A stretch of 64,000 nucleotides of DNA from Verrucomicrobia bacterium ADurb.Bin006 (GTDB taxonomy: Bacteria > Verrucomicrobiota > Verrucomicrobiia > Limisphaerales > J093). The notes beneath the pieces are model-generated. The model saw only the letters and a program-made list of their open reading frames with translations. It had not been told where the DNA came from and did not search any database. Of this stretch, positions 1-29,900 are shown piece after piece. Where the stretch lies: NCBI GenBank assembly GCA_002071485.1, contig MWFF01000182.1:1-64000 (forward strand), read 5' to 3'. The first letter of the stretch is position 1, and each line of letters starts with the position of its first letter. Position numbers and translations under genes: made by a program.

Positions 1-58
1 AACCTCGGTCGCGGCCCGCAGCGTGCGATTGGGGCCCCATCGGGGGATGCCGCCGGCC

Positions 59-1873
59 CTACCGAGATCCGCGAATGTTCCCTCTCTCACCCACAAATTC
101 TGCTACAGAGCCCCCTTTCCATTCGCCGGGCACGCCGCCCGCCAGCAGCCCCGTCCGGGCGATCTCAGTGTAGCTGGGCAGGACACAGTAGCACGGCTGG
201 TCATCCACTTTGAAATCCACCGCCAGCAACGGGCGCACGACCTGCTCCCAGGTGTCCAGTCTCATGCCGTCGAACACCAGCACCCACACCTTGCCCGGCA
301 GCGTGTCCGCCGCGATCTGCTTCACGTCAATCTTGGCCCGGAGCAGTCCCCGCACGTTCCTGGCCCCGCGACAAAACTTCTCCGGGTCGGGACGGACGAA
401 TCCCGCCAGCTCGATGTCCAGTTGTTCCAATCGTTCGACCACACGGCCTTTTAGCGAGTCCGGCGCGGGCCGTTGCTCGTCGTTGCCGAACAGGTATTGC
501 TGCCCGCGTTGGATCAGGTCGTCATCATCGAACTCAGCCAGGTAGTGCGTGGCCTGAGACACCCCAAGCTCCAGAAGATGCTGGCCATGCTGGGCATACC
601 AGTCCAGCAGATCGTCCGCGTGCGGGAACTTGGGCAGCGGCACCGTGAGACCGGTTTCCGCTTTCTGTAAGGCCAGCAACAGCCGCAGCCCAGCCCGGCA
701 CTGCCGCGCCCGTTCCGTCGAGGTGTCGGCATCGGCAAGCAGAGGATGCTTTTCGAGTCCCGACACCCAGGCCAGCGCCTGGGCCGATGGCTTGGCGAGA
801 TAACCTTCCAAGGCCGACCGCAGGTGCTGCCGCAGGATCGCGGGCGCGGTCTGGGCCAGCAGAAATTCGGCGTCTGCGGCGCTGCCGGTCACGGGCGGAA
901 GCAATGTCAGCACCTTGGCAGCGCGGGCCGGGGTCAGGAAGACCTCGGCGCGCTGCTCAATGGCTGACCATACGCCGCCTTTTTTCAACGTCGTAATGAC
1001 TTGCGGCGCAAGCTTCTCCATCTCGGCCAGACGCAGATCGGGAGCGAACATCTGGAGGCCCGCCAGTTGGGTGGACGGATTCTGGAGCTTTATCCGCCCG
1101 GCCAGCTCCCGGAGCACCAGGTAGCCCGCCAATTCCTCCGGTGCGGCCTCCATCCAGAACAGATGATCTTCCACCTGTTCGCGGGCGGCTTCTTGAATGA
1201 TTTGCTGAATGACCTCACGGTGAGCACTCAGTTCCGGCCTGCCGACCAGCAGCCGAATGGCGTGGGCCAGGAACTCTGCCGGTTCAACCTCGTCTGTCCA
1301 GATGTCGTTCAGGCCCAGCTCCGGGTGGTGGGCCAGCAGCACCATCGCGGCAACCTGGCCACGACCCCAACTGTCGGGCTTGCCCCATCGCTGGATCAAC
1401 TTGTCAGCGGCCTCCTGGGCATAGTCCAACCGCGCCAGCAGGTCGGTCTTAAACCGGCGCAACTCCGCGACCGGGCAGTTGATCTTCGGCGTGATGCGCC
1501 GGAAGAACGCGGGCACCGACAGGTCCAGCGGCTCCCCAGCCTCATTCCGCGCGAGGACATCTGCGACGTAGGACACGTCAATCGGCGCATCCACGCCGGG
1601 GCCGCGCGTGAGGACGATCACGACGCGCGGAAAGGCTGAAGGCTGAGGGCTGAAGGCCGAAGCGGAAGCCTCGCGGAAGCGAAGGCGGAAGGCCAAGTCG
1701 TCACCGCGAAACACGACCAAGTGCCATTCGCGCCCCGCAGGATCAACGACCTTGGGCCGGTCCAGCACCTTGGCATCGGCCAAAAACCGATCCGAGTCGA
1801 TGGCGACTGCGACGCGGGCATCGCCGGGAAGCTTGCCCAGCCAGTCGTGGAATAATTCGCTCGGCGTTGTCAT
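59..1873 (-). CDS. pglZ: PglZ-domain protein of a BREX-like system, apparently C-terminally shortened
   Basis: 604 residues. PglZ proteins belong to the alkaline-phosphatase superfamily and are the hallmark component of BREX phage-defence loci. The recognisable core is near the C-terminus: LVFDGMRLDTWE at about residue 531 (metal-site strand) and LPSYTEIARTGLLAGG at about 565-580, both typical of PglZ. The N-terminal part is a long helical region. The protein stops about 24 residues after the second motif, whereas family members I know continue for a further substantial segment, so the end of the phosphatase fold seems missing. Another frame past the stop stays open to the window edge, so a frameshift is possible. 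An in-frame heptamer repeat codes for a Ser/Phe/Pro linker near residue 75. It is the last visible gene of the minus-strand island, 38 bp after hicA. The PglZ call is firm; completeness is uncertain. Confidence 0.82.
   Translation of the reverse strand: MTTPSELFHDWLGKLPGDARVAVAIDSDRFLADAKVLDRPKVVDPAGREWHLVVFRGDDLAFRLRFREASASAFSPQPSAFPRVVIVLTRGPGVDAPIDVSYVADVLARNEAGEPLDLSVPAFFRRITPKINCPVAELRRFKTDLLARLDYAQEAADKLIQRWGKPDSWGRGQVAAMVLLAHHPELGLNDIWTDEVEPAEFLAHAIRLLVGRPELSAHREVIQQIIQEAAREQVEDHLFWMEAAPEELAGYLVLRELAGRIKLQNPSTQLAGLQMFAPDLRLAEMEKLAPQVITTLKKGGVWSAIEQRAEVFLTPARAAKVLTLLPPVTGSAADAEFLLAQTAPAILRQHLRSALEGYLAKPSAQALAWVSGLEKHPLLADADTSTERARQCRAGLRLLLALQKAETGLTVPLPKFPHADDLLDWYAQHGQHLLELGVSQATHYLAEFDDDDLIQRGQQYLFGNDEQRPAPDSLKGRVVERLEQLDIELAGFVRPDPEKFCRGARNVRGLLRAKIDVKQIAADTLPGKVWVLVFDGMRLDTWEQVVRPLLAVDFKVDDQPCYCVLPSYTEIARTGLLAGGVPGEWKGGSVAEFVGERGNIRGSR
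1632..1657. repeat. Heptamer-type repeat inside pglZ
   Basis: Imperfect AGGCTGA/AGGGCTGA heptamers in tandem on the plus strand. In the pglZ frame they are translated as a Ser-Ala-Phe-Ser-Pro-Gln-Pro-type linker, so the insertion is in frame. Similar sequence recurs at six other places in the first 6 kb. Confidence 0.7.
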
Positions 1874-1874
1874 T

Positions 1875-1908
1875 CGAAGTCTGAAGTCCGAACGCTGAAG
1901 GCTGAAAG
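1875..1908. repeat. Heptamer-type repeat between hicA and pglZ
   Basis: Degenerate GAAGTCTGAAGTCC / GCTGAAGGCTGAA units fill the 38-bp gap between the hicA stop and the pglZ start. It is the same repeat family as at 2329-2354 on the other side of hicBA. Confidence 0.65.
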
Positions 1909-1911
1909 TAG

Positions 1912-2094
1912 TCAGGTTTCGATGCCCAAGTATCGCCTGATGTGCCGGGCCAGATGCTCATCAACCTCAGTGTGGCGGGGCACGGGTTGGCGCCGTCCGT
2001 TGGCGGGGTTCCAGTAAATGTCGTGCCGTGAACCTGGTCGCAGGAGTTGGCAACCGGCGGCGTTCAACTGCCGGATCAGCTCCCGGCGTTTCAT
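1912..2094 (-). CDS. hicA: HicA-family mRNA interferase toxin
   Basis: 60 residues, the usual HicA length. HicA toxins are small double-stranded-RNA-binding-fold ribonucleases that cleave mRNA when not bound by HicB. The family pattern is complete: MKRRELIRQLNAAGCQLLR at the N-terminus, then GSRHDIY with the catalytic His at about residue 24, then NPANGRRQPVPRHTEVDEHL. The start overlaps the stop of hicB by 4 bp (ATGA), so the two are translationally coupled. The pair sits inside the BREX-like operon between the methyltransferase and pglZ, in the same orientation. Confidence 0.9.
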   Translation of the reverse strand: MKRRELIRQLNAAGCQLLRPGSRHDIYWNPANGRRQPVPRHTEVDEHLARHIRRYLGIET

Positions 2095-2282
2095 ACCAGG
2101 ACTTCCTTCACCTGGTGTTCCTCCGGCACGTCCTCCAGCACCATCATCCGGTAGGCGTCCCGGATGTTTTCCTCCAGTTCCTTGAGCGTCCGGCCCTGAG
2201 TCATGATCTCCGGGTGTTCAACCAGCTTGCCCAGCCAGAATTTCTTCGATTTCCAGTAAATCATCGTCAGCTTCGCATTCAT
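2091..2282 (-). CDS. hicB: HicB-family antitoxin
   Basis: 63 residues. It has the partial RNase H-like HicB fold: YWKSKKFWLGKLVEHPEIMTQG followed by TLKELEENIRDAYRMMV, the classic HicB_like pattern. It probably binds and silences HicA. No separate DNA-binding tail (RHH or HTH) is visible, so autoregulation by this protein alone is doubtful. It is encoded directly upstream of hicA with a 4-bp overlap and 62 bp downstream of the methyltransferase stop; a heptamer repeat lies in that gap. Confidence 0.88.
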   Translation of the reverse strand: MNAKLTMIYWKSKKFWLGKLVEHPEIMTQGRTLKELEENIRDAYRMMVLEDVPEEHQVKEVLV

Positions 2283-2328
2283 AGTTTCACGTTTGCCCTT
2301 TCATTCATTGCTCGCTTCAAATCTACCA

Positions 2329-2354
2329 CTTCAGCCTTCAGCCTTCAGCCTTTC
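2329..2354. repeat. Heptamer-type repeat at the methyltransferase 3' end
   Basis: Three to four CTTCAGC units on the plus strand overlap the end of the methyltransferase gene and extend into the gap before hicB. It brackets the hicBA insert together with 1875-1908. Confidence 0.7.
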
Positions 2355-5287
2355 TCCCCGAAGTCCAATGTAGTCTGCGCGTCCTCCTGCGCGCCGGATT
2401 CGCCCTTCGCCTCCTCCCCCTCCACCTGCCTGGTGATCTTGCTGGAGGCAGCCCGGCACTGCTTCTCGGCGCGGCGGAACAGGTCGGCAGCGACGTGATC
2501 TTTCAGGACGGACTGGAACAGGCGCGTGATGACCCGATACGCTTCATCGGCGTCAAAGCCGCGCAGGGCGGGCAGCGCATCGGCCTGTTTCTCCTCGATG
2601 TCCCGGCAGGCTTGGTAGAGCACATCAATCCACCGGCAGCGTTCGTCGTCGGTCGTCTGGCGCGCGAGCGAGCCGCCCAGGTAACGCTCGGCGTCGTGGA
2701 GCACGCGGAGTGAACGGTCATCGTTCATCCGCTCGCGTTCCTCGGCGGTCGGCTCGCGCCAGCGATTCGTATCGGGGTCGCGCCAGAAATTCTCGGTGAG
2801 CAGGAAGTCGAGATTCAGCGATTGCGACACCGCGGCGGGCAGCAGGCCCGTGGCCCGCATCCACAGCGGCTTGAGTTCGCCGATGAGCGCAGGCTGCGCG
2901 TGGAGTTTCTGGCGCAGCCAGTCAATCGCCGTGACCTCATCCTTGATAACGACCTCCTCCTCGACCAAAGCATCGCCGCCGTTGCTGCCCACCGCCTGGC
3001 CGCGCAGATACCAGCGGTTGCCCACCTTGCGGAAGTAGCGGGCGCAGACGCGCTCGATGAACGGAAGGTTGAGCCGCTCGACGCTCACGCCCTGCGGGAT
3101 AAGCACATTCATCAACATGCTGTTGATCGTGGCGGTGGTGCGGTGCTCGTCGTTGTATTTGCCCGGCTCGGCCTTCATGCGCTCCGGCAAGGTCTGGAGA
3201 TGCTGGCGCACGGCGTCGGCGACCTGGTGTTCGAGGTCGTGGTCGGCGGCGCTGACTTCGGCGCGAACTACGGACGGCTTGTGGAGGTTGAACAAAACGT
3301 CCTTGTCCACCACATCTTCGACGCCCTCAGCACCTTTGACCTGCTTGAAAGTCTTCTGCTCCTTGTCGAGCAGCAGCATGTTGGCAATTTCAAAACCGGC
3401 TTGACGGATGGCCTGTTTGACCGCCTCGAAAACGGCTCCATCTGAATTATTGAACTCTACCGTGGCCCATCGACCCGGCTTGAGAACGCGGAAAATCTCG
3501 GCGAACGCGGCCCGCATCAGTCGGGCGTAGTCGGGCAGACGTTTTGTGCCGCCATCGTTCTTGCGATGGACTACCGCTTCAAAGGTGGTGTCCGTCGTTT
3601 TACCAATCCATGCCTCCCATAGAAGATTTGGCTCGGAGTAGTAGATGTTTGAGCCGAACGGCGGGTCGGTAAAAACGTAATCCACGGCCCCGTCAGCGAT
3701 TTCAGTCAGTTCTGTCGCCGAACCAGTCCGCACCGACACGTCAGCATGGAAGCGATTATTGGCGAAGCTATAGCCTTCGACGAGCTGCTCCAACTTGCGC
3801 TCCCAAACATCCATCACGTTCTTCTCAAGCGGAAAGGAGGAGAGGTAAAGTTGTCCACTGAGACCGCCGCCCCCGCTGCCCCAAGCTTGCTTCTTGGTCA
3901 CATAGGCAGCGATTCCGGTTAACGCGAATCGCAGCGCATCACAGACACGCTTGTCCGCCGACTCCGCAGCCTTTGACCACAGAGCGGCGTAGGCCCAAAG
4001 ATTCCGCGTGCTCCAGAAGTCTGTAACCTTTCCAATCTTTCGGACTTGAAGGGCATTGCGTCGATATTGTGGTCCTTTCGTGTCCATCGGTGTGTCCGGC
4101 ACCCAATAGGGTAGGGACTTTTGAGCGATGTCCGAAAGGGTTCGCAACTCAAGAGCCGTGACCTTGCGTTCGTAACGCAGCCGAACAGGCGCATAGCCCC
4201 TCTTGGTGCGCTTCACTCGGATTGAGATGAGGTTGACCGAAACAGGAACATTTCCCTGTCGCCGCAGTTGCATTTTCTTCCACTTCACCTGGCAATAGGG
4301 ACAGGTGAACAGCTCGACAACCTCACCGCTTTTGTAGTCAACGGCAGCTTCCCACAGCACGATATTCTTGCCGCACCCTCGCGCCACGCGCTTCTTTGAG
4401 AGAATAGGCTTGCCAGCGTTCCTCCCCCGCGTGCTGACCTTGCCGGTGGGTTCTTCGATTGTGACGAAGCCCTCGCAGCGGTAAACGTCCGACCAGATGG
4501 TGTATTGGATCGTGGCCGGAATACAAATCCACGATTCGACCTTGGCCACGTCGAGCTTGCCCCAGTCCTTGCCGCGCGGCAGTTCAGTGACGGGGTAGCC
4601 GAGTCGTTCCTCGACCTGCGCCTTGGTCAGTAGCTCCCAAGTGCGCTCCTCGTCGCCGAGCAGGGTGCTGGAGGCGGTCTCCGCCGGTGGGTTCTTCAGG
4701 CGGCTGGCCACTTCCAGGTTGGCCGGATTATACAAGCCCACCGCTGGCTCGTAGTGCTCGGTGCCGTAGAGCCAGTCGAACTCCTCCTTCACCGCCGCCT
4801 TGATCCGCTCGAACTCGCGCTTCAGGGCCTCGACATCAACCGGGGTGTTGTAGTTGTAGGCGATGTGGCAGGCGGCGGGCGACAGGTCGTTCAGGATACA
4901 GGCACGCGGCCCAACGCGATCCTTGAGTTCCGGGAACTGCTCCAAGATGTCGGCGGGCGGATTGGCGCACATCTGCGCCGCCACGCCGGTCATCCCCGAC
5001 CCGCAGAACACGTCCAGCACCAGGTCGCCCGGTTGCGTGTAGTGGAGGATGTACGGGATGATGCTGCGCGGCGGGACTTTGGTGTGGTAGGAGTGCGCGT
5101 TGTAGATCGGGTCGTTCTTGCCCTCCTTGATGTCCGCCGCGAACGGAGGCCGGTCGTAATCGTCCATGGCCGGATCGTAGGGCCGGACATGACGGGCCAG
5201 GAACGCCTCAAGGCTGAAGGCTGAGGGCTGAGGGCTGAAGGATTGCGGATTCGGCGTTGTGGTTGGTTCGCTCATCGGTTTCAGCAT
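2345..5287 (-). CDS. Zn-ribbon DNA methyltransferase, PglX-like (BREX)
   Basis: 980 residues. S-adenosylmethionine-dependent DNA methylase, probably the self-marking N6-adenine (or N4-cytosine) enzyme of the island. The SAM-binding motif FCGSGMTG is at about 93-100 and the catalytic motif TDPPFGSN at about 540, so motif I precedes motif IV. Between them is a long insert with Cys pairs, including CPYC at about 328-331 and GCGK before it, which looks like a zinc ribbon; the type 3 BREX methylase PglXI (COG1743) is described as Zn-ribbon-containing. I do not see the usual DUF1156 N-terminus, so this is PglX-like rather than a clean PglXI. An in-frame heptamer repeat near residue 15-25 gives a Ser/Phe/Pro linker. 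The start codon directly abuts the stop of the four-helix-bundle gene; Met5 is an alternative start. Confidence 0.8.
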   Translation of the reverse strand: MLKPMSEPTTTPNPQSFSPQPSAFSLEAFLARHVRPYDPAMDDYDRPPFAADIKEGKNDPIYNAHSYHTKVPPRSIIPYILHYTQPGDLVLDVFCGSGMTGVAAQMCANPPADILEQFPELKDRVGPRACILNDLSPAACHIAYNYNTPVDVEALKREFERIKAAVKEEFDWLYGTEHYEPAVGLYNPANLEVASRLKNPPAETASSTLLGDEERTWELLTKAQVEERLGYPVTELPRGKDWGKLDVAKVESWICIPATIQYTIWSDVYRCEGFVTIEEPTGKVSTRGRNAGKPILSKKRVARGCGKNIVLWEAAVDYKSGEVVELFTCPYCQVKWKKMQLRRQGNVPVSVNLISIRVKRTKRGYAPVRLRYERKVTALELRTLSDIAQKSLPYWVPDTPMDTKGPQYRRNALQVRKIGKVTDFWSTRNLWAYAALWSKAAESADKRVCDALRFALTGIAAYVTKKQAWGSGGGGLSGQLYLSSFPLEKNVMDVWERKLEQLVEGYSFANNRFHADVSVRTGSATELTEIADGAVDYVFTDPPFGSNIYYSEPNLLWEAWIGKTTDTTFEAVVHRKNDGGTKRLPDYARLMRAAFAEIFRVLKPGRWATVEFNNSDGAVFEAVKQAIRQAGFEIANMLLLDKEQKTFKQVKGAEGVEDVVDKDVLFNLHKPSVVRAEVSAADHDLEHQVADAVRQHLQTLPERMKAEPGKYNDEHRTTATINSMLMNVLIPQGVSVERLNLPFIERVCARYFRKVGNRWYLRGQAVGSNGGDALVEEEVVIKDEVTAIDWLRQKLHAQPALIGELKPLWMRATGLLPAAVSQSLNLDFLLTENFWRDPDTNRWREPTAEERERMNDDRSLRVLHDAERYLGGSLARQTTDDERCRWIDVLYQACRDIEEKQADALPALRGFDADEAYRVITRLFQSVLKDHVAADLFRRAEKQCRAASSKITRQVEGEEAKGESGAQEDAQTTLDFGEKG
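5210..5241. repeat. Heptamer-type repeat in the methyltransferase N-terminus
   Basis: About four AGGCTGA/GGGCTGA units. They are translated in the methyltransferase frame as the linker SFSPQPSAFSL, so the repeat extends the protein N-terminus without breaking the frame. Confidence 0.7.
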
Positions 5288-5310
5288 TCAGCGTCCAGCA
5301 TTCAGCATTC
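5280..5310. repeat. Related TTCAGCA repeat at the four-helix-bundle/methyltransferase junction
   Basis: TTCAGCATTCAGCG-type units span the stop codon of the four-helix-bundle gene and the methyltransferase start. The four-helix-bundle protein therefore ends in a repeat-coded GGMLNAGR tail. Confidence 0.65.
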
Positions 5311-5671
5311 CGCCGCCCGCCTTTGCGTTCTTCTCGATAGTTGTGAAGATCGCCGTGAGCTGGTCAGTTTCGTCCAGGAGATCGGCCATTTTGGCGGCGG
5401 GAACGATGCCGCTTTCGACCAGGAGTTCGAGCCAGTAGGTCGTTTCCTCGATCTCCTTGAGCGAGTCGCCGATTTTGGAGATGAACTCCGCCTTCGAGCG
5501 TCCGCGTGACGCTTCCCGGTAATTCGCGCCCACCGAAGTTGCCGAACGCAAGACCTGCCTGCCGAGCACCTGCGCCACGGTGTCGGACTTGGGCAGCGCG
5601 GCATACATGCGGATCACCCGCAGCGCGAACCGCTTGGTTCTTGTTTTCAGGTCTTCTGGTTTCTGTTCCAT
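5288..5671 (-). CDS. Four-helix-bundle protein (TIGR02436/S23-like)
   Basis: 127 residues of the four-helix-bundle family often annotated 'four helix bundle protein' or 'S23 ribosomal protein', first known as proteins encoded in 23S rRNA intervening sequences. The signature is present: FALRVIRMYAALPKSD, then GRQVLRSATSVGANYREASRG, then FISKIGDSLKEIEETTYWLELL. The molecular role is unknown; these genes are frequent small cargo in environmental genomes. It lies between the DUF1016 fragment and the methyltransferase, in the operon direction, with repeats at both ends. The last eight residues derive from the 5280-5310 repeat. Confidence 0.85.
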   Translation of the reverse strand: MEQKPEDLKTRTKRFALRVIRMYAALPKSDTVAQVLGRQVLRSATSVGANYREASRGRSKAEFISKIGDSLKEIEETTYWLELLVESGIVPAAKMADLLDETDQLTAIFTTIEKNAKAGGGMLNAGR

Positions 5672-5764
5672 ACTTCAGCTTTCAGCCTTCAGCCTTCAGC
5701 CTTTCACGTCGTCTTCCGGTTTCTGTTCCACACTTCAGCCTTCAGCCCTCTGCCTTCAGCCTTA
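5651..5764. repeat. Imperfect tandem duplication of a gene-start segment plus heptamer repeat
   Basis: Two adjacent units of about 55 bp (5651-5707 and 5710-5764) both read GTCTTC(T/C)GGTTTCTGTTCCA and then run into CTTCAGCC heptamers. The first unit contains the start region of the four-helix-bundle gene; the second is a non-functional copy that supplies the tail of the DUF1016 fragment. Confidence 0.75.
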
Positions 5765-10014: not shown

Positions 10015-10485
10015 TCACGCAGTTGTGCCGAAAACCTCCTTCATCATGCCGGGTTCGGAAAAATAGTTGATGAGCCGATTGCTCTCGCAGCGGACTTCTT
10101 CCGGCCAGTCCATTTCCTCGCTGCTGCCGTCCAGGAGCAGGACCACCATTGTAAAATCACCGATAAACCAATCGTAAAAAGCCTTTAGGCCGACGTTGTA
10201 GCGGGCCAACAGGCCGATGGATTTGACGACCAGGATCACTCGATTGTCAGGCCCCCGCTGAACCGCCCGCAGCCTCTCGCGCAAGCGGTCTCGGAGCTGG
10301 TCTCTGGTGGACTCGTCATCCACTGGCAGGCTGCCCAGGTCAAACAAATCAAGAAGGTCGAGGGTGGAATACTTGGCGGCACCCAGTGCCTGCTGGAGGT
10401 CTTTCTCCGTCCCCATCCACATCACCAGCTCCTTGTCCCAAGTGCGAGACCCGACCAATGTATGGAGCTGTGCGGCAGGTTTCAT
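10015..10485 (-). CDS. BrxF-like small protein without a visible Walker A
   Basis: 156 residues, encoded directly before brxC where type 3 BREX loci carry brxF. The central part has alternating hydrophobic strands (NRVILVVKSIGLLARYNVG, then FTMVVLLLDG), compatible with the core of a P-loop ATPase including a Walker B-like strand. However, no GxxxxGK[S/T] motif is present anywhere, although BrxF is described as P-loop-containing. It overlaps the upstream gene by 4 bp (ATGA). Either this is a degenerate BrxF or an unrelated positional substitute; the name rests mainly on context and size. Confidence 0.5.
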   Translation of the reverse strand: MKPAAQLHTLVGSRTWDKELVMWMGTEKDLQQALGAAKYSTLDLLDLFDLGSLPVDDESTRDQLRDRLRERLRAVQRGPDNRVILVVKSIGLLARYNVGLKAFYDWFIGDFTMVVLLLDGSSEEMDWPEEVRCESNRLINYFSEPGMMKEVFGTTA

Positions 10486-11687
10486 AAACGCGCCTTCCTC
10501 GCCAGGAACTCGTCCAGCGTGAAGCAGGTCGTGACCTGTTCCAGTTGATCGGCGACCACATACTTGCCCACCAATCCCGCCGCGTCGGCTTCCCGGAGCA
10601 GAGCGCGGACGGCATCTTCCGTTTTATAGCCCAGGTATTTCCAGAACGGGTTCGTCACGAGATTCCGCAACTCGACCGTCCGCACGGCCCTGGCCGCGAA
10701 CAGGTGATGAAGCAGGATCAGGAACGAAGTCTTCTGGGTGACTACCGGCAGCAATCGGTCGGGCTTGCCTTTGGCCCGTTCAAGGAAGCCCAGCTTCTTG
10801 AGATTGCTCTTGAGCCGCTCGCGGGTCTTTTCCGGTGGGGCCTCCCCCAAATGATCCTGGAGGAATTTGTCGAAATAGGTCGCAGGCATCGCGAGGCCGG
10901 TTTCGCAGGGGAATAGAGCCTCCGCCACGCACCGGCCCATGATCGGCTCCTGGTTCAAATACGACCACCGCAGCAGATCGAGGGCTACGACCTCATCCTG
11001 GTAGGCCGACCAGACCCGTGGCAGCAGCCCCCTCAAGCCGTCCTGAAAAAACCATCGCACGATGGACTGGGCATAGCGGCGGCGGGTCTCCATGCTGTTT
11101 TGGCCGAGCCGCTTCATCAGGATTTCGTGAAGCTCATCCAGAGATTTGGCCTCATGCGCGACCTTCAACGCCAGCAGGCCCTCGACGAGGAGCACGTCCT
11201 GAATAGATTTTCGCTCCCGGACAGGAGCGGCCTTCGGCGGTAGCCGCAGCTCCGATTGCCCTGGAATGTTCAGTGGCATCTCGGACTGCGCGAGGGGTAT
11301 GGTCGGCGCACTTTCAGGCTCAGGGCGTTTGGCTTCCGTTGGGGCAGGCATTGCGACTGTGACTGCCGAAGGTGTTTCCGGTTTGACCAGCCGTGATTCC
11401 GTGCGGCCCTGGCTGATGTAGTCCACCAGCTTGAGCAGGGTCGCAACGTGATCCTCCACGCCTTTGACCGATTGGAGAGCGGCAGGGGCGGCTGCCAAGA
11501 CCTGGTTCAGATCACCGAAACGGGCAAGGAGGGCATCAGCGAGCGGTTTAACGTCGCGACGGGGGATGCCGAATGTCAGCAGCAGCTCCAGGATGGCCGC
11601 GTCCGTGCGCGACGCAGCATCCCCGTGGATGAACCGCTCGCGCAGCCGCTCACGGTGACCGGATTTGCCATTGTCGCCATCGTCCAC
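10482..11687 (-). CDS. RadC-type HhH domain fused to a BrxA-like (DUF1819-like) domain
   Basis: 401 residues, first gene of the island. Residues 10-90 (RERLRERFIHGD, then LELLLTFGIPRRDVKPLADALLARFGDL and LQSVKGVEDHVATLLKLVD) match the helix-hairpin-helix N-terminal part of RadC/UPF0758 proteins; the RadC metalloprotease part is absent. After a Pro-rich linker (about 100-180), residues 185-400 are helical with winged-helix character: TRRRYAQSIVRWFF, then FDKFLQDHLG and RERLKSNLKKLGFLERAKG. This layout resembles BrxA, the small DNA-binding BREX protein, but I assign it only by pattern and neighbourhood. The fusion itself is unusual. It could be a DNA-sensing or regulatory subunit. Confidence 0.55.
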   Translation of the reverse strand: MDDGDNGKSGHRERLRERFIHGDAASRTDAAILELLLTFGIPRRDVKPLADALLARFGDLNQVLAAAPAALQSVKGVEDHVATLLKLVDYISQGRTESRLVKPETPSAVTVAMPAPTEAKRPEPESAPTIPLAQSEMPLNIPGQSELRLPPKAAPVRERKSIQDVLLVEGLLALKVAHEAKSLDELHEILMKRLGQNSMETRRRYAQSIVRWFFQDGLRGLLPRVWSAYQDEVVALDLLRWSYLNQEPIMGRCVAEALFPCETGLAMPATYFDKFLQDHLGEAPPEKTRERLKSNLKKLGFLERAKGKPDRLLPVVTQKTSFLILLHHLFAARAVRTVELRNLVTNPFWKYLGYKTEDAVRALLREADAAGLVGKYVVADQLEQVTTCFTLDEFLARKARL

Positions 11688-11920
11688 AACCTCGATATAG
11701 GTTTACAAAAGACAGTCTCTCGTTGGTTAGAAGCGATCCTTATAGCTTGCCTAAAGCCTTCGGGCAAGGAGATGCTGATCGCTGCGTAACATGCGTCGGG
11801 GATTCTGCTCCTCGCCGTCAATCAAAACAAGCTTGGTCTTCGGGCATCTCGCCGATTTGTGAAACAGCGCGAAGGACTTATGGCCTGGCGACAAGCGAAG
11901 ACATGCGATCGTGTCAGCCA

Positions 11921-12157
11921 TCAAGGTTCTCCAGCGGCAGCGGCTGTCCGGACAGCCTTCAACACTCTCGCCATCTCGCTCAGCACCGGATCGCCGTCAA
12001 CCTTCGGGATCAAAACGGCAAGCCCGGCACTGGATCGCCTCGCCAGTGCCTCCGGGCTCAGCCGCTCGGCCTCGCGGTAAGGCCGCAACTGATTGACCAC
12101 GGTGTCGGTCTTGGCCTCGATGCTGATAACGGGGAATCCATCTTCGTAAGTGGTTGA
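11921..12157 (-). pseudogene. C-terminal gene fragment abutting tRNA-Gly
   Basis: An open frame of 79 codons with no start codon at its 5' end; it begins after a stop 10 bp from the tRNA 3' end and runs to TGA at 11921. It encodes PVISIEAKTDTVVNQLRPYR and later AGLAVLIPKVDGDPVLSEMA, which reads like genuine protein with balanced codon use. I do not recognise the family. It looks like the tail of a gene truncated when the island joined the tRNA. Confidence 0.5.
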
Positions 12158-12166
12158 TTATGAAGA

Positions 12167-12243
12167 TGGAGCGAGCGAAGGGATTCGAACCCTCGACATC
12201 AACCTTGGCAAGGTTGCGCTCTACCAGACTGAGCTACGCTCGC
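12167..12243 (-). tRNA. tRNA-Gly (anticodon GCC)
   Basis: A complete cloverleaf on the minus strand: acceptor GCGAGCG/CGCTCGC with discriminator T and encoded CCA (12167-12169), D stem GCTC/GAGC, anticodon stem CAACC/GGTTG with loop TTGCCAA (anticodon GCC), variable loop ATGTC, T stem GAGGG/CCCTT with TTCGAAT loop. All stems pair. Its 3' end faces the BREX-like island, the side on which tRNA-targeting integrases insert DNA. Confidence 0.97.
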
Positions 12244-17989: not shown

Positions 17990-20900
17990 TTAGTGTGCGG
18001 ACAAATCGGCAGCCCGATAGAACGCCGTGCCCGCGGGCGGACTCGCGTCGGTGTAGCGGATCAGGCCGATCGAGTCGGCTTGGACCGTGTCGACGACTTC
18101 CCACACTGGATTGGCGAGGCTCGAGGCGCGTTCGATGGCGTACCAGCGACCCGGGATACCCACGAACTCGAGAACAACGGTCCCGTCGGGATTGGCGGAG
18201 AGCTTCAGTTCCGCGGCGATCGGGCCGTCGGACACCACCTGCACAAACACCCGGCCTTCACCCAGCCCTCCCTTGCCATCCGAGACAACGTATGTGAACT
18301 CGTCGGGCTCATTGCCGCTCGAGTCCGTCGGTTCGTAAAACACCCAGCCGCCAACAAGCCGGATGTTCGCCCCGTTCCGCGACACGGCCGAGACGCCCGT
18401 GAGGGTGAGCGGGTCGAATTCGGGATCGGCGTCGTTGGCCAGCAATTCGCTGACGGCGACCTTGACGCCTCGATCCAAAGGCCGCGTCACCAGGTCGTTG
18501 CCTGCCACTGGCGCGTCATTCACCGCTATCACCCGTGCCAGGAATGTGCGGCTCGCACTCGAGGACCCGTCGCTCACTGTCAGCGTCACCTGCGCCTCGC
18601 CGGACCGTCCGGGCTCGGGCGTGATCGCCAGCACCCGGTCGGCGCCGCTCCCACTCACCGCCAGTCCGGACAGCGGCAGCAATGTGAGGTTTGAGGACTG
18701 GACATTGATTCTGAGCGCGTCCAACGGCGTGTCCGGATCGCCGACCGCGAACGGCACGGCATGGGCCACCGTATCTTCGACCATGACCTGGTCCGCAATC
18801 TCCGACACGTGCGGCGCAGTGGTCTCGAAAGCGACCAAGGTGATTGCATCCGGGCTGACCGGAGCGGGCTCGAGGTTGCCCGCCGCGTCCTTGGCCCGGC
18901 TGTAGAAGGCGTAGGTATGGCCCATCTGCCCTGTGTACTGTCCGCCCGTAAACCGCGTGTTCGTCAGCCAGAGCGCGAACGGCCCTCCATTGTCGGACAC
19001 GTAGATATCGTAGGCCGCCACGGCCGAGCCGTCGGCGTCCTGGCCGGCCCAGGTGACGGCGAACGATAGGGCGCTCCGAGCCGGCAGTGGCTTCACGGCG
19101 CTGATCGGCGCGCTGATGTCCAGCGGCGGCAGTTCCTCGTAGATGAGGGTGTAAGTCACCGGCCCTGCAACGGCGTTGGCGTTGTAGTCGAACAGGTGCA
19201 GTATGTTCTCGCGCACCGGTTTCTTGCCCTGGCCGACAAACGTCCGATCAGTGACCCAGGCGTTGGCCACGCCCGTCACCCCATGCACATCCATCAGGAT
19301 GTCCCGATTCCCCTGCCTGACGCCGTGGAGCTTCATTTGGCCACCGGACGGCTCGGGCACGCGCAGATACACGAATCCAGGCGGCAGGCTCGCCGTCAAC
19401 TGCACGGTGGTGTCGGATGCGCTGGGCGGTCCGTCCGCAACACCGGCCGTGACCACGGCCACCTCGTTGGTCCGCCCGTCGCTCAGGTACACGCGATCCG
19501 GGTAATCCATCGGCGGATCGGGCAGATCGTTGACTAGGAAATCCGGGCGGCCGTCAGCGAACGGGGCGGGGGCGGCCACCATGTGGATCATCTCGTGAAT
19601 GCTGACGTCGTCGATGAGGGCCGTCTTCTTGCCGGCGATCGCATCGAGGTGCTCGAAGGTGACGCGATAGTCAATGAACAGGCCCTGAAGCGTCGAGCGC
19701 AGCAGCCACCGCCCAATCTTGGTTGCGCCCGGCTCGATGTTGCCCAAACTCACGGTCAGTGACGGCGTGAGGTTCTCCTCCTCGACTTGCGAGGCGATAA
19801 TCTCGAAGTCGATCAGGAGCCCCTTCTCGTTCTCGATGATCTGGGGCTGCGCCGAGGTGATGCGGAGGTTCTTGGCCACACCTTTGCCCCGGTTTTCGGC
19901 CAGCACCGCCAGCGAATACGGAATCGACGGCTCGATTTGCGGTGTGAAGGGGTCATCCGAGAACACGTCACGCTGGTGGAAATACTTGATGTACAACAGC
20001 GGGTCCGGATACACCGTGATCGGCACCGGCTGCAACGGCACAATGATCTGACGTCCGCCCTGCACGTACTTCAACGTGCCCCCCACCAGATATAACTTCG
20101 GCGACTCCGGCGCGGCCTCCCGCGTCGGAATCAGAATCCAGGACGCGCTCCATGTGCTCCTGGCCGCGGCCTCGCCCGTCCCATCCACCGGCGTGGTCGG
20201 CAGCCGGATCGCAAACACATCCCCCATGTCCTTGTAGTATTCATCGGTGATGTTCACCGCAACCTCGAGCGCTTCCAGCGGGATCGTGTCGCCGTTGACG
20301 ATCTCGAGCGTCGCGTTGAACGCGTTGCGCGTCAGAACCGCTTCCTGTTCGAGACGCAGCTTCACCTTCGCGCAAACGCCTTCGCCATCCATCAACTGCG
20401 CGCCGCCCCGCTTGCCCGGGCTCCCGCTGACGATCGCCGAGGCCGACTTGAGGGTCGCACGCGAGCGGCCCGAGAATTTGATCGGCGCGCCGCCGGACTT
20501 GGCGTGGAGCTGCTTGGCGGCCTCGGGTCCCAACTGCCGGGCAATCGCCGCGCGAACCGCGTCTTCAACGCCGGGGATCACCTCGGTCCGCAACGCATTC
20601 ATCAGACCGGCAGGGTCCGGTCCGCACGTCGACGGCAGCAAATAGACCTTTTCGATCGGCTTGCCTTCGGCGTCTTTGAACAGCGAGTAGGTCGTGCCCG
20701 CCAGCTTCACATAGGCCGAATAGTAGATGCCCTCGAAACAGGCCTCGGTCGTCATCGCCCCGTCTTTGTACTCGAATGAGATGTGGGCGCCGCCATTGAT
20801 GCTCCCGTTGATGGCCGCCACTTCCGCCTCCCCCTCGAGCGGCCCGGCCGTGTACGTGGCCGTCGCTTCGCCCATGACGCCACCGAAGAACCGCAGCGCG

Positions 20901-23900
20901 ACTTCGCCGCTGGCCGTTACTTCCAAACCGGAGAAGTTGCATCCACTCGAGACCTCGCCCGAAAGCGAGATGCTGCCCGTCGCCTGCAAGCCTATCTTGA
21001 ACTCGCCCGAGATGCTCGCTTCCACGCTGTCACCCATCGAGATCGTCGCCGAGGCATCCTTGCTGATGCCCGGACCGACCGACACCTCGAGCGAGGCGCC
21101 CGCGCCGCCGTACACCTCGATCCCCACGCTGCCGTCGTCCAGACAGCACGTGCGCGCCCCGCCGCTCGCCTCGATGTCCACCTCGGGCTGGACCAAGCCG
21201 CCCGTCTGGGCGGTGATGTAAGCCTCGATCGCCACGCCAATCGGCTCGAAGAAACTCGAAATGTCCACGGTCAGAATCTCTTCCGACTCGAACACTTCCG
21301 GATCGCACGGATCGCAGTTGACCGGAGGACTGAAGCTCACCGGCCCCGAGTAGTAGCTGCCGGGGCCGGCGGTCCCGCCCCCGGACACCGGTCCGCCGCC
21401 GCCGGTGTAGCCGCCCCACCCCCAACCGCTCCACCAGCCGGCCCCGCCAGACGAGCAGTCGCCATGCACATTCACCACGGGCAGGAGCACCCGATGCCAC
21501 TTCCGGTCCGGCCCGCAAATGAGGAACCAATCGAGGCCCGCTGTGATCGTGCAGGGCACACTGGCCAACTCCGCCCGAGCGCGACGATTGTCCGCCAGTC
21601 CCGCCGCGCGGCCTGGGCCGGGCTCGTGGTTCTCGATGGTCACAGGCACCTTGACCTCGCCCAGTGCCGGCACCAGGCCGACGTCTTCGACCAAGGGAGT
21701 GATCTTGTACCAAGGGTGCTCGCTGAACCGCAGCTTCGCCCCCTGAGCGGCCACCAAACCGCTGTTGCGGATCGTCAACAGGATTTGCTGAGTCGGCAGA
21801 GTATGCTCCGACATGTCGATGAACGGCGGATCAATCGTAATCACCGGCACCGGGACAAACGTCTCGAAGGTCGTCTCGATCGTGATCTTGGTCCGATCCT
21901 CAATCGCCGTGGGCACCACCGTCCAGTTGTACTCGACCGTCTGCCGGTAGAGGAACGCCACCACCGAGTTCACCTTCGCCGGCTCGATGAAGTGGACCTG
22001 GGAGTAGGTGCTGTGTTTGTCGGCCGTGACATGCACCTCGTAGTAGCCTTCGAGCACTTCGGTGAACTGAGCCACACCGCCCGCATCGGTCAGACCCGCA
22101 ACGACTTCCTGGCCCGTGTACGCGTCCCGCACGCTCACCGTGGCCCCCGCCACCCTAGGCGAACCTTCGGCGTAATACGTGTACTCGTCCTCGACGACCA
22201 CCCAGAGATCGCCCTTGCCGTCGGTGACATACCGGAACTCGAACGGCACCGACATGCCGTACTGGGTATTGCCGACACCGATCGCGCCGCGATAGGGCGC
22301 CCCCGGCGTCAAACCGTCATCGACGGTCGGCTTGAGCACGATCATGAGCGATGTCGCCTCGCCGGGCGCCAACGAGTCCAGGCGCGTTGCCGTTGCGGAG
22401 AGCCACGGCAGGGGCGGCAACTGGACATCGAGCGGGCCGGTCGCCTCGCCCCCGTCGTTGCGCAACTGCAACTCGATAGTCGTCTGCACGCCGGGCTTCA
22501 TCGCCGCCACTAGCGAGCCGGGCGTCGCCACCAACCGCGGCTTCAAATCGACCACCTGCACGCTCACCGGAATCGTCAGCGTCGCCCCTTCCACCGTACT
22601 CACCTGAAGCAGGACCGTGCCGCTGATGTACGATGCATCGTTGGCGCGCACCGTGAGAGTCAGCGTGCGCGACCCAAGGGCCGGCAGCGTCGACGCATCG
22701 TCCAAGTCCGCCGTGACATTGGCATTGGGCACATTGGGCAGGTTGCTGCTCGCCGTCACAATCAGGCCGTTCAGCGGCACATCGCCGAGATTGGCGATCT
22801 GAATTGTCTGGGTTGCGCTCGCCCCCTCGACGACCTGAATCGTGGCCGGCGACGGCTCGGCCTTCATCCCCAGCAACGTGAAACCGTCCTGCGGCTCGGC
22901 GGTCGCCATACCGGGATGCTCTGCGCCCACCTCGTACACGCCCGCCTCGGTCGGGAACGGCTTGAACGAGATGCTGTATTGCCCCAGATTGTTGCACATG
23001 GCCGAGAAGACACGCAGCGTCCCCTGCACGCCAATGTGGATATTCACCCGCGCGAACGGCACGGGCTGTCCAGTCTCGCGGTGGAGCGCCTGGCCCCGCA
23101 AAGGCACTTCAGTCCCTGCCAGGGCAATCTTCTTGCCCTGACTCGGATCCACGGGCAAATCGACCACGACGGTGGCGCGATAGGTCGGATTCACCACGAT
23201 CGGAACCGAGATGGCCGTGTTGTTGTCCTCCAACAACTCGCCAACCTGGTTGTCGGCATCCGTGACTGCAATCAACCAGTACTGGCCCGTGTCCCGGGGC
23301 AGGTAGAACGACTGGACGACCTCGAAAAACTGTCCGGGCGGCACATTGTTCGGGAAAACATATTGCCCCAGAAACTTGTCGCTGCCCACCAGCGGGTCAC
23401 TCGACAGGAACAGCCGCTGGACAAACGAACGCCCGGCGCCCGTGTCGGTTGTGCCCTGATTGCGCACGCGATAGGTCGCCTGAACGATCTGTTCCGAGCC
23501 GCCCGTTCCAGGCACGTGTATGAACTCCACCGCCAAATCCGGCAAATCGGTGTCGGTCACCACGATCGTATCCGCACCGCTCGTGAAATCGGCGGCTGCG
23601 GCAGTGAGTTTCACAGCCTTGTTCCCGTCCGTGATGCCGTCATCCAAGCTCTCGATCGCAAAGCCCACCTCGACCTCGCCCTTGGGAATCGTGACGGTGG
23701 CCGGCACCGCGATCTCACCCGGCACATCGACGCTGAGCGTCACATCGAGAGCCTCGGTAGGCGGCGTATTCCGGGATACAACGCCCATGGCGGCTTCGGC
23801 CAATCCCTCGGCCACCACATCCGGCGCGATCGCCACGGTCAGCGTCGGCCCGTCGTTGTCGGTCACCGTCAGATGCGCCGCAGTGCCGTTGGCAAACGGC

Positions 23901-26900
23901 GCGCCCCGGAGCAGGATAACAGGCTGGATGGTGACGGTCTGCGGCCCATCCACCACATCATCATCGACCGCGGCCACGGGGAAGGAAATCGAGTCCGCGT
24001 TGGCTGGAATCGTGAGCGTGCCGGGCACGAGGACTTCGGTCGCATCGCTGTTCTGGAGAGCGATGTTCAGTGCCCGATCGCTGACGGGCGAACGGCTCAG
24101 CGTCCCCATCGTCGCGTTCGCTCCCGCCCCCTCGCTGATCTCGCTCTGGGCGAAAGTCAGGCTGACCGCGGGCAGGTCGTTGTCGATCACCTTGACGCTC
24201 TTTGTGTCGCCCACCGCGCCCACCGCGCTTACGGTAAGCTCATACCCGGTGTCGCTCTCGATCTGCGTGTCCTCGACCGCCGCAATCCGGAACGTCGCCT
24301 GATCCTCGTCTGCTGGGATCGTAACGCTGGCGGGGGCGGTGAGTTGAGACGGACTCGAGCTCCCGATGGTCACCATCAGCGGCGTGGGCAGAGCGGCGTC
24401 ACGCTTGACCGTCGCGTTGGCCGTCTGGCCTTCGCCCAGAGTGGCCGGCAGGATCAGGGTCAACACCGGCTGGTTGACATCCGTCACGGTCACAGTCGCT
24501 GCCGCGTCGGCAAACCCGCTCGCCTTCGCGTTCAACGCCACCAACTGATCGCCATCCGCCACGCCGTCCTTCTGCGGGGTCCCATTGAAATAGGCCGCCG
24601 CCTGCCCACTCGCGATTTCCACTGTCGGCGGCACCGTCAACTCGGTCGTGTCGCTGCTGCTCAGGTTCACGGTCAGAGCGGCGTCGCGGCTCCCGTTGCG
24701 GCTGACGGTGAACCCGAGCGTGTTGGCGCTCTCGGGCACCCGGGCCGAGCTGGCTGTCAAACGCAGGCGCAGCGGCACGTTCACCGGCGTCATCCCCAGC
24801 GCCGTGTTGTCAGCCTCGTTCGACTCGATCACGTTCCCGCCGCGATCCGTCGTCACCACCGCGTACAGCAGGCCGGCAGGCCCATCCAGCGGAATGGTGA
24901 CCTGGGCGGACCGCTCCACCACGGCGCCCATCGCCAGCGTGCCGAGGAAATCCACGGTGGCAAACGTCTGATCGTTGCCGATGAGATTGTCCGTCGACAG
25001 CGCAACGGTTTCCGACCATGAGCCGGTCAGGTCGGCTGCGCCCGCGTTCCGAGTCTTCCACGTGACAGTGAATGCCTCGCCGGGAGCCGCGGTCGCCGGC
25101 ACCGCGATGTCTTCGACAACCAGGTTCGGGCGCGCCTGCGCAGTCAGCGTGATCGGGACGGGCGCGCTCCAGTTGTTGTTCTCGTTCGACTCGGTCACAA
25201 CCCCGTACCCGTCGGTGCGCACGAGCAGATAATGCGTGCCGTCGGCGAACCCGGTCGCCGGCAACGTCACGTTCACGGTCAGATTCGCGGTGCTGGCGCC
25301 CGGCCCCAGCGGCGAGGCGTCGCCCGACGGGCGCGCGGCCAGGAGAACATTGTTGGCGCCGGCGGGGACCCCGTCGCGGGAGAAGTAGATCGCATCGTGC
25401 CATGCCCCATTGGCGGATCCATTGCCCGCATTGCGGAGTCGGAACATGAGCGGAATCACCTGGCCGAACTGGGCCGTGGCGGGTGCCGCCGCGCTGATCA
25501 CCTCGAGGTCGGGCGCCCTCAGATCGAGCGGCGTGTCGCTCACGGCGGTATTGTCTGTTTCATCGGACTCGCCGATGGCGCCGCCGACGTCTGTTCTTAC
25601 CACCAGATAACGATTGCCCGGCAGACCGGCCGGCAGCGTCACAGTGGCGGTGCGCACAACACTCGCCCCCGCCTCGAGCGTGTCGGTGTGCTCGACGTCT
25701 CGAAGGACGTCGAGTGCGCCGCTGCCGTCCGGAGCCGTCCCGAGCCAGAGCCGATCGCGCCACGATGCGGCGAACGTGTCGCCGTCTCCCTCGTTCCGAA
25801 CCGTCCATTCGACTTCAACATCCTGGCCGCCCTCGCCCGCCGCCGGCAAACCCGTCACGGTCACTGTCAGATTGGGCACGTCGAGGTCGATGACGTCGCT
25901 GTAGCGGTCATTGAGGTCTTCAGACTTCTCACCCACCTGGTTCAAAGCGTCGGTTCGCACCAGGATGTACCGGGAACCGCTGGGACCGGCGGGGAGGCTG
26001 ACCTCGACCGTCTGCTCGATCGAACCGCCGTTGGCAGCCAATGCGGACGTCTGCGGCACGGCGGTCAGATAGTGCAGGTCGGTGCCGTCGACCCTCGTGC
26101 TCCAATACAAGTGATCAGACCATGCGCTGGAAGTGGCGGCGTCGCCCTGGTTCACCACGGTATAGGTCACCTCGAACGGCTGATCCGCATCAGCGCGTTC
26201 GGGCGTCACGATGGCCGTCACGGCGAGGTCCGGATAAGGCGCAAGAGTCGAGGCGCGCGTGACGGCGGAGGCGTTGTTGGCCTCCGCGGTGGCCTGCGGG
26301 TTGAACTCGGCGATCTGGTTCGCCTCGTCGCATGTCACCTTGAATTCAATGTTCCCAACCCCCGGCTGCAAGTGCGGCAACTGGAAGGCGTAGGATCGTG
26401 CGAACGAGGCGCCGGGTCCGAGGTCGCCGTCGGCCTGGGCGTTGTGTTGGATCGTGCCATCGTGCAACGTCTGTCCGCTGGTGGTGTTGCGCACGACAAT
26501 CCGATCGCGCCACGAACCTGAGGTGGGGCGATTTCCCAAGTTGCTGTCTTGCCAGGCAATGGTCACATTCTGGCCCGAGAACAACGCCCCCGCCGGTTCG
26601 ACGCGAAGACTCACAACCACGAGATCCACCACCACATCGAGCGGCACCGCCGCCTGATTGTTGCCCTCCGCGCTGGCATGGCTGAAGGCGTCGAACTCGA
26701 ACAAAGCGTCGTCCGAATCGGTTACGACACGCACTTCGTAACCGCCAGCCGCGGGCAATGGCAGGGTTGCGGACCGCGCCGCGGTCTCGCCTGGACCGAG
26801 GTCGCCGGCGATCGCCAGCTCCGTCCGATATTCGACAACCCCCGTCACGACATTGCGCAACAGCACGGATTCCACAACCCCCCCTCGAGCGGCCCCGTCT

Positions 26901-29900
26901 CCGCGGTTGGCGGTCGTCCATTCCACCTCGATGCTACCTCCCGCGAGCCCCGCGCTCAGATTCTCGACCCTGAGGTCGGAATAGGCCGCTCGAGTGACTG
27001 CGAAGGTGGTGTCGGAGACGGTCACGTTGTCCGCCTCGAGGATGAACTCGGCGATGGCGTTGCCGGCGTCGGTCATGACGATGGTGTAGAACTCGCCTTC
27101 GATGCCCTCCGGCAGGCTCACCGTCTGGCTGACGGTGTACTCATCGAGCGATTCGAGCGCGCCGCTATGCGGGAACACCGCCAACTCAATGTCATTCAGG
27201 TCACCGTAAACAGCATCAGGCGAAATCACCAACCGGTCGGTCCAGGTGGCGCCCACGGTCCCCAATCCACCCACGTTCTTCACGGTGAAAGAAACAGCCA
27301 CCGGATCGCCGCTTTCGAGACCGCTGCCCGACGGCGGCAGAAGACTGGTCACCTGCAGGTTCGGGAAAGCGACGCTGCCCGTGGGCATCACCTGCGTTTC
27401 GAGCACGTACCACTGCAGCAGACCGCCCTGGTTCGCCCCGCCTCGAACAACAGCATAGTAGCGGCCCGTGGTGTTGATACGCACCTCCGCAACCGAATCG
27501 AAGGGGCGTCCGCCCGGTGCTTCGACGACGTAGCCGTTGGCTGCATCGTGGAGGCTCACCACAGGCGCCAAGGTGCTGCCAGCGAAGAGCCGGGCGTTCA
27601 GGAACACCGTCTGGCCGCTCTCCAAAGTGCCCAAGTCGAAGTAGTCCAGATCTCCCGCCGTCCGGATGTAACCGACCGCGGCACCGCTCCTGGTGCCCCC
27701 GCCGCCGGTCAACGCCAGCGCCGACGCACTCCCGACCGAGCCGTTCTCCTCGTCCTCTTGCGCCACCTCCGGCGGCGTGAGCACCACCCGAATCTGGTAT
27801 TCGCCCTGGTAATCGTGGTTGTAGCTCACCCGCACAAGATAGGTGCCGTCCCGCGGAATGGTGATCATACCCGATTGCCCCCAGCCGCGATAGTCCGGGT
27901 AGAAACCCTGGAGGTCCTGGCCGTCGATGGCTTCGATAAGGTAGTACAACTGGCTGGCGTTGGGCCGGCCCGGCACCTCCACCCCCACGACCAACCGCTC
28001 ACCCGCTTTTGCGCTGAAGCTCCAGTAATCGTAATCGCCGGTGTTGCTCAGGTTGCCTTGACCCGCCGCAACCCGCACGCCATGCCCCACTGGATCGAAG
28101 GCCAGCCATTCGGTGTCGTTGCCAAGAAACACGCTGACCGTGTTGTTGCCGAAGTTCGCCGTGGCGATGTCCATCCGCCCGTCGTTGTTCCAATCGCCCG
28201 CCACCGAACTGATCGCGTTGCCGCCCGCCGGGTAGCTCACCGGGGCGCCGAACGTTCCGTCGCCCTTGTTGAAGATCACACCCAGTTGGCTGTTCCCGTA
28301 GTTGGACGCAAGCAAATCGGGCAGGCCGTCCGCGTTCAGATCAGCCGCGACGACGTGGTACGGATTCGATCCGCCGCTGGCATAATCGACCCTCGGCCCA
28401 AAGGTCCCGTCACCCGCACCCTTGAGCAGACTGACGGTCGAGCCCGAGTGATTGGCCACCGCCAGGTCCAAATGCCCGTCGCCGTCGAAATCGCCCACAG
28501 CCACCGCGTAAGGGCCGTTCGGCGTGGGATACTTCGCCGGAGCCGCAAAAGCGCCCAGGCCGTCGCCCAGCAGCACGCTCACGGTGTTCTCGTTGAGATT
28601 CACAACGGCGAGGTCCAGCGAGTCATTAGCGTCAAACCGGCCTGCGGCCAACCGCGCGGCGCCATCGCCCGACCTGTACGCCATAGGAATCGCGAACGTC
28701 CCGTCTCCGTTGCCGCAGAAGACGGTCACGTTGCCGCTGCCCCGGTTCGCCGTCGCCAGGTCGGCGTGGCCGTCTCCGTTGAAATCCGCGACAATGATCC
28801 CGTTGGGCTTCGATCCAACGGACAGAACCGCGGCATCGCCGAATGTCCCGTCGCCAACCCCCAGCCGCACAGTCACGCTGCCGCCGCTGTAATTCGCCAC
28901 GGCTAAATCCAAATAGTCGTCATCGTTCAGGTACCCGAGCGCCAGGGCCACCGGATTGTTCCCCGCGCCGTAATTCACGGCGCCGCGGAACGTCCCGTCC
29001 CCATTCCCAAGCAGAACACTGGCGTTGTTCGAGCCCCAATTGGCGAGGACCAGGTCCTGATTGCCATCCGCATCGAGATCGCCTGCGGCTATCCCGTAAG
29101 GATTGCTGCCGACGCCGAAAGCGGCTGTGCCCACGAAGGACCCGTCAAAGGCGCCGTCCGCGTTTTGGCTCAATGACGTTGCGGTGGCGGCGCTGCCGTT
29201 GTTGCGGCCTTCAATCACAAAACCAGGCGGCGGCTGTATGACAAACGACCTCGTATAGGCCGCGGCCAAGCCGTTGCCGTTGCGGTCTTGAACATCCACC
29301 TGGATTCTGAACCGGTACGCCCCAGCCTGCAGGGGCCCATCTGTTACCGAGTAGCTCGCGCTCAGTCCACTGGCATACGCAGGGCTTGTTGTCACCGCGT
29401 AAAGAGCATCGTCCTCGTTGTCAAAAACCCCATCCAACCCCGCGCTCCGCAGTTCGTAGTTGGCCGCCTCGTTCACCGTCCCGGCGAGCATGTCCTCGCT
29501 GAATCTCACCGTGAAACGATCCACCACACCCGATCCTGTCGTCCCCTCGCCCGGCAGACTGCACGACACAATCGTCGGCGCCACACTGTCCTCCAACTCG
29601 ATCCCCAGCACATACTGCGCAAGCAATCCGGCATTGGCCGTCGCCAGGACGCGCGCGTAATAGGTGCCATTCACCGCCACATCGTGTGTCAGCGAGGCCG
29701 GGCTGCCCACCTCCTCCGCCACCTTCGTCCCGTCCGCCAGAAAGATGGCCAACGTCCAGGAGAGGCTGCTCGATGCCGGCCTGGTGAGGGCCAGCGCGAT
29801 CCGCGTCCCGACAGTCTGGTTGCCGAGCAGGTAATAATCGCCATTGGGATCTCCGACGCCGATGTACCCATGAACTCGGCCCGCCTGTTTCCCCCCCGCC

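Follow-up and report, generated by a model that had tools for sequence, protein, structure and literature searches.

The window analysed here, 64,000 nucleotides of the forward strand (positions 1 to 64,000) of contig MWFF01000182.1 (C182) from Verrucomicrobia bacterium ADurb.Bin006, carries a cluster of bacteriophage exclusion (BREX)-like genes next to a tRNA-Gly(GCC) gene, and our results indicate, with a probability that we put at roughly 0.92, that this cluster arrived in the chromosome as the cargo of a genomic island, by site-specific recombination in the 3' part of that tRNA gene. Three observations carry this conclusion: the island-side junction keeps a complete tRNA, the displaced 24-bp end of the tRNA lies beyond brxL, and the site is unoccupied in a genome of the same genus (G001). 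The initial annotation had already proposed that an island entered at tRNA-Gly, and the repeat at the far side and the empty-site allele, taken together, lend that proposal strong support.

With regard to the tRNA-side junction, ARAGORN and Rfam agree on the extent and the minus-strand orientation of the tRNA gene (Table 1), the 3' end of which points left, at the BREX-like genes, as had been claimed. It is the sole tRNA-Gly(GCC) gene detected in this genome, and its 77 nucleotides are identical to those of the tRNA at the empty site of G001. The earlier description of the surroundings also stands: BREX-like genes run leftward from 11687, past a spacer of 469 bp that separates the tRNA from the gene in the brxA position, and the opposite side of the tRNA is occupied by a DUF3472 gene and, beyond it, by genes whose translations were named by eye as a TRIC-type channel, TatD, MEMO and AmmeMemoRadiSam-like proteins, all of them part of a flank that is collinear in G001. 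For a hairpin at the junction, which extends from the CCA of the tRNA into the beginning of the island, the RNA fold has a z of -2.8 against shuffles.

The far end of the island lies on a second contig. The first base of the window is the end of C182, and the bases that follow belong to an insertion sequence (IS) of the ISL3 family, whose other end, with the C-terminal part of the transposase (PF01610, E 3.8e-29), occupies positions 1-373 of contig C39; there it is followed, in this order, by GGAAAGGG, the remainder of pglZ, brxL and the displaced 24-base tRNA end. Once the IS and one duplicate are removed, pglZ is in frame across the two contigs and encodes 933 amino acids, and the alignments of the two contigs to the uninterrupted pglZ of G005, a genome from another genus of the same family, overlap by precisely the 8 bp GGAAAGGG. 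The shared GGAAAGGG, the restored frame and the 8-bp overlap thus indicate that C182 and C39 are neighbours, separated only by an IS left unplaced in the assembly. With the contigs joined in this way, the tRNA-derived repeat is found at the far side, as an exact 24-bp copy at C39:3156-3179 that keeps the orientation of the tRNA and lies 254 bp past brxL, the last BREX gene. It is contained in the only strong non-tRNA match to the tRNA 3' end in the genome (C39:3153-3187, 94% over 35 bp), and the chance expectation for the 24-base end elsewhere in the genome is about 4e-8 copies. Between the two cores the island measures 14,852 bp, with the IS excluded and one core counted. In the stretch between brxL and the displaced tRNA end we also observed a short direct repeat, ATGACAATTCATGACAA, at positions 3021-3037 of C39, of a kind seen as recombinase arm sites.

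The site without its island was seen in G001, where the DUF3472 gene, tRNA-Gly and a gene for a 747-amino-acid protein are mutually adjacent (contig C193); the last of these is the very gene found beyond the displaced tRNA copy in C39, and the flanks are collinear at 89-97% identity, for six proteins to the left and three to the right. Past the core the bases read CCAATCTTCGTTTCAGAATCTCGTGTGGACG in G001, CCAATCTTCATCTCGGAATCTCGTGTGGACG on the C39 side and CCATCTTCATAATCAACC on the island side, with G001 matching the C39 side, a comparison that places the crossover within GTTCGAATCCCTTCGCTCGCTCCA. This segment belongs to the T-arm/acceptor side of the tRNA, a classic location for attachment sites (PMC4383910). 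A precise excision would also yield a clean site such as that of G001, if the BREX cluster were ancestral here and had been lost in that genome. We consider such a history very improbable, as the displaced tRNA end in C39 is a product of insertion, 12 of the 14 family genomes searched have no brxC match (G001, which has no brxC relative, is among the 12), and the G005 cassette sits in another context.

We acknowledge that some points weigh against an entry at tRNA-Gly. The genome is a draft in 200 contigs, and the C182-C39 join is inferred through a repeat. G001 is the sole informative sister genome, other family members being without tRNA synteny, and no tRNA was present in the DUF3472 neighbourhoods fetched from other genomes of the family and order. 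Finally, neither an integrase nor a remnant of one was found in the six frames of either island end, the 0.5 kb closest to the tRNA included. The draft state of the genome, and the fact that the window opens on the end of a repeat, could also raise the suspicion that the junction is an artefact of assembly or binning; we find this hardly credible, given that the tRNA junction lies within one contig, that both outer flanks are collinear with G001, and that the target duplication, the in-frame pglZ and the overlap with the G005 gene all argue against it.

Table 1. Features of the island and its junctions (window positions unless a contig or locus is named)
Feature	Position	Strand	Evidence or remark
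ISL3-family IS end, contig end	1..112		same 112 bp at or near the ends of ~10 other contigs
8-bp target-site duplication GGAAAGGG	113..120	-	second copy C39:374-381
pglZ 5' part, interrupted by the IS after residue ~587	113..1873	-	3' part C39:374-1422; uninterrupted homologue in G005
HicA toxin gene (1912-2094) and small antitoxin-position gene (2091-2282)	1912..2282	-	HicA PF07927 E 8.9e-10; partner without family match
PglX/BrxXI-like DNA methyltransferase gene, 980 aa	2345..5287	-	PADLOC PglXI E 8.8e-161; N6_N4_Mtase E 2.4e-17
Accessory 23S rRNA-intervening-sequence-type four-helix protein	5288..5671	-	PF05635 E 3.7e-19; also in G005, 87%
brxC-like ATPase gene, 1351 aa	5955..10010	-	61-92% identity to counterparts in four other loci
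Small brxB/brxF-position gene, 156 aa	10015..10485	-	kept in four other loci, 42-82% identity; no family match
brxA-position gene, 401 aa; residues 1-~95 a fused RadC/UPF0758 N-terminal domain (11403-11687)	10482..11687	-	PF20582 E 2.4e-7; NF000642 E 5e-10
56-aa frame, its ATG sharing one base with the TGA of P0001	11751..11921	-	codon score -0.05
79-codon frame P0001 (stop counted), without start codon; gene tail or chance frame	11921..12157	-	open reading frame
Junction hairpin CCATCTTC / 16-nt loop / GAAGATGG, covering the tRNA CCA and first island bases	12138..12169	-	sequence
tRNA-side attachment (att) core of the island, GTTCGAATCCCTTCGCTCGCTCCA, comprising the final 24 nt of tRNA-Gly	12167..12190	-	exact copies at C39:3156-3179 and at the G001 empty site
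tRNA-Gly(GCC), insertion target, intact after insertion	12167..12243	-	ARAGORN; Rfam RF00005 70 bits
CTTCAGCCTTCAGCCTTCAG-type repeats	1630-1662, 1877-1907, 2329-2354, 5210-5240, 5673-5705, 5733-5763; locus L127 5651-5676, 6130-6159	both	sequence

If the island did enter at tRNA-Gly, recombination within the 24-bp core would have been the work of a tyrosine recombinase, and the tRNA gene would have been made whole again by the copy of its 3' end that the island brought along; as the recombinase is absent from the island, it may have acted in trans or been lost later. A six-frame search of the genome with PF00589 gave no match on C182, in line with the earlier statement that the window holds no integrase, and none on C39 (the IS interior is unassembled); the far flank, where an integrase had been thought worth seeking, has none in the six frames of its end region either. 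Islands at tRNA genes usually carry their integrase themselves (PMC4383910), and it is close to an even chance that this island formerly carried its own tyrosine integrase by the tRNA and that a deletion removed it, perhaps along with the head of a gene of which the 79-codon frame behind the tRNA would be the tail. The length of the spacer, 469 bp here versus 89 bp in G005, would agree with such a loss, as would the position of that frame, which opens 10 bp away from the core at a frame boundary, and its weak match to a nuclease domain, described below, which would fit a truncated nuclease gene. The want of any integrase remnant at either end speaks against it, as does the possibility that the 79-codon frame is there by chance.

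Alternatively, and with a likelihood that we place somewhat further below even, the island is non-autonomous and a recombinase from elsewhere (a prophage, an integrative element or a resident tyrosine recombinase) acts on its att sites in trans. This would agree with the lack of an integrase both here and in the inspected parts of the G005 copy, and with the presence in the genome of at least 11 PF00589 loci over the cut-off. Helper-dependent and integrase-less islands are in fact documented (PMC4383910), and at E. coli hotspot 37 no mobile element is detectable in 68% of the islands, even though many of these retain integrase or recombinase genes (PMC10121019). Against it, no resident recombinase could be tied to tRNA-Gly: there is no tRNA-Gly within ~1.5 kb of the PF00589 loci, one of which has a tRNA-Met ~0.7 kb off.

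The 79-codon frame deserves separate consideration. The initial annotation had described it accurately (79 codons, no start codon, ending at 11921; 12157-11921 on the minus strand) and had taken it for the tail end of a gene that the insertion or some later loss had truncated, which our analysis does not establish. The frame opens right after a TAA at 12158-12160, and an equally long frame arose on the same strand in 48.5% of shuffles of the 469-bp spacer. Its codon score, 0.097, is equivocal, lying between the values of true genes (mean 0.27) and of wrong frames (mean -0.28), and no convincing relative was found in its own genome, 387 genomes of the phylum, plasmids, phages, viral contigs, PHROGs, Pfam, NCBIfam or the PDB; a plasmid search with the whole 469-bp end region likewise gave no match. 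The only hint of a gene tail is a weak, sub-threshold match between the 29 N-terminal residues of the frame and the HSDR_N profile (positions 132-165, E 0.11), as might be expected if a nuclease domain (HsdR) ended here in a truncated gene. Because the empty site of G001 is without any sequence of this frame, it arrived with the island and is certainly not a chromosomal gene severed by the insertion; if it is the tail of a gene at all, the head was lost inside the island.

The order of the genes leftward from 11687 is that of a BREX operon, though the curated models fit several of the proteins poorly. The brxC-like ATPase matches NF033441 with an E of 2.5e-7 but only 29 bits versus a cut-off of 400 (PADLOC BrxC, E 0.0014), and the 5' part of pglZ taken alone reaches 24.8 bits versus a cut-off of 25 with PF08665 (E 2.4e-5; PADLOC PglZ, E 1e-4); the NCBIfam BREX PglZ models match both parts of that gene. 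At the end of the operon, ahead of the displaced tRNA repeat, brxL matches TIGR02688 with 470.7 bits (E 3.9e-141, cut-off 329.3). The name brxA is used for operon position alone. The fold model of that protein was poor (mean predicted local distance difference test score, pLDDT, 53; predicted template modelling score, pTM, 0.34); its homologues occupy the same operon position elsewhere, and the RadC/UPF0758 fusion is found only here and in G005, being absent from three more distant loci. Between pglX and brxL there is no gene of the size of the BrxHII helicase here, nor in loci L106 and L107. A PglXI/BrxXI-like methyltransferase together with BrxL, and without BrxHII, is a set common to four loci in different genera or phyla, which include window 1-5287 with C39 374-2898, L106 14301-22616 and the intact Methylomirabilis cassette, L107 14050-22727, and it is possible that this mixed set represents an unclassified BREX variant. 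Short CTTCAGCCTTCAGCCTTCAG-type repeats occur in both orientations within and between the BREX genes, including the inside of pglZ and the start of pglX.

The 8-bp duplication shows that the ISL3-family element landed in pglZ, and this event, later than the arrival of the island, may well have disabled BREX. The break, at about residue 587, falls inside the PglZ domain, which starts at residue 528; PglZ is encoded in all BREX types (PMC12205998), and deletion of pglZ in an Acinetobacter BREX abolished methylation (PMC9122589). Because the IS splits the gene within this domain, the BREX copy studied here is probably dead. Elsewhere in the window, positions 17990-35932 form one uninterrupted open frame of 5980 codons; it has FG-GAP/VCBS-like repeats (recognised by eye) and two long stretches that are nearly identical, and its product is probably a giant surface protein.

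The same cassette is found in G005 (contig C324), at 77-97% protein identity, and further relatives are carried by Planctomycetes, Methylomirabilis and deltaproteobacterial bins; its occurrence in several phyla and in another genus of the family was counted in favour of horizontal spread. In G005 the brxA-position gene starts about 100 bp behind a tRNA-Met, and DNA homology is confined to a stretch that begins shortly ahead of that gene and ends 4 bp after the stop codon of brxL. A repeat of the tRNA-Met 3' end after brxL, at the far side of the G005 cassette, was not detected above chance, and the search for a G005 empty site through its upstream gene was uninformative, as the orthologues in relatives have no adjacent tRNA; a cassette behind tRNA-Met without a detectable far repeat is suggestive only. 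Two near-identical tRNA-Met genes of G005 (L126 7127-7202 and L140 3673-3748) show four base differences, every one of them in the stem of the T-arm, which is GGGGG/CCCTC in the copy adjoining BREX; these differences could reflect an att-derived 3' end or ordinary variation. It would be tempting to see in the two cases a minimal BREX cassette, lacking an integrase, which a recombinase supplied in trans puts again and again behind the 3' ends of different tRNA genes (tRNA-Gly here and tRNA-Met in G005), and hence a defence-only satellite element, an idea that we regard as unlikely.

In comparison with known systems, the tRNA-borne defence island described here is real and of a known kind, and what is noteworthy is the lack of an integrase, the decay through an IS, and the mixed BREX set. 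Like the tRNA islands identified by Islander (PMC4383910), it lies between an intact tRNA gene and a displaced 3' fragment of it in the same orientation, with a crossover in the T-arm/acceptor part, a size within 2-200 kb and an empty allele in a relative; unlike them, it has no integrase inside, which the Islander algorithm and database filter need, even though the signature itself does not. It also resembles the BREX islands at tRNA hotspots of E. coli (PMC10121019) and at the core defence hotspot (cDHS) by tRNA-Pro of P. aeruginosa (PMC10250203), which carry defence cargo often without a recognisable mobile element, but it differs from them in belonging to a different phylum, in having one compact BREX operon as cargo, and in its base-exact att ends. 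It is an open question how defence islands that lack mobility genes move (PMC10121019); for this cassette the question becomes testable, thanks to the defined att sites, the empty allele and the further copy in a different genus. It offers, in a sparsely mapped lineage, a base-exact case of the arrival of a BREX operon, with a compact cargo, a restored tRNA, no enzyme left and decay by an IS. As for the system itself, it shares with BREX Types 3 and 1 the brxA- and brxB-position genes, a candidate BrxC-like ATPase and PglZ; the BrxXI-like methyltransferase with an internal four-cysteine insert is a feature of Type 3, and BrxL one of Types 1 and 4 (PMC12839542). BrxL is absent from Type 3 according to that recent survey (PMC12839542), and our cassette departs from Type 3 in having BrxL beside a Type-3-like methyltransferase and no BrxHII helicase gene, a combination that is relevant to the classification of BREX systems.
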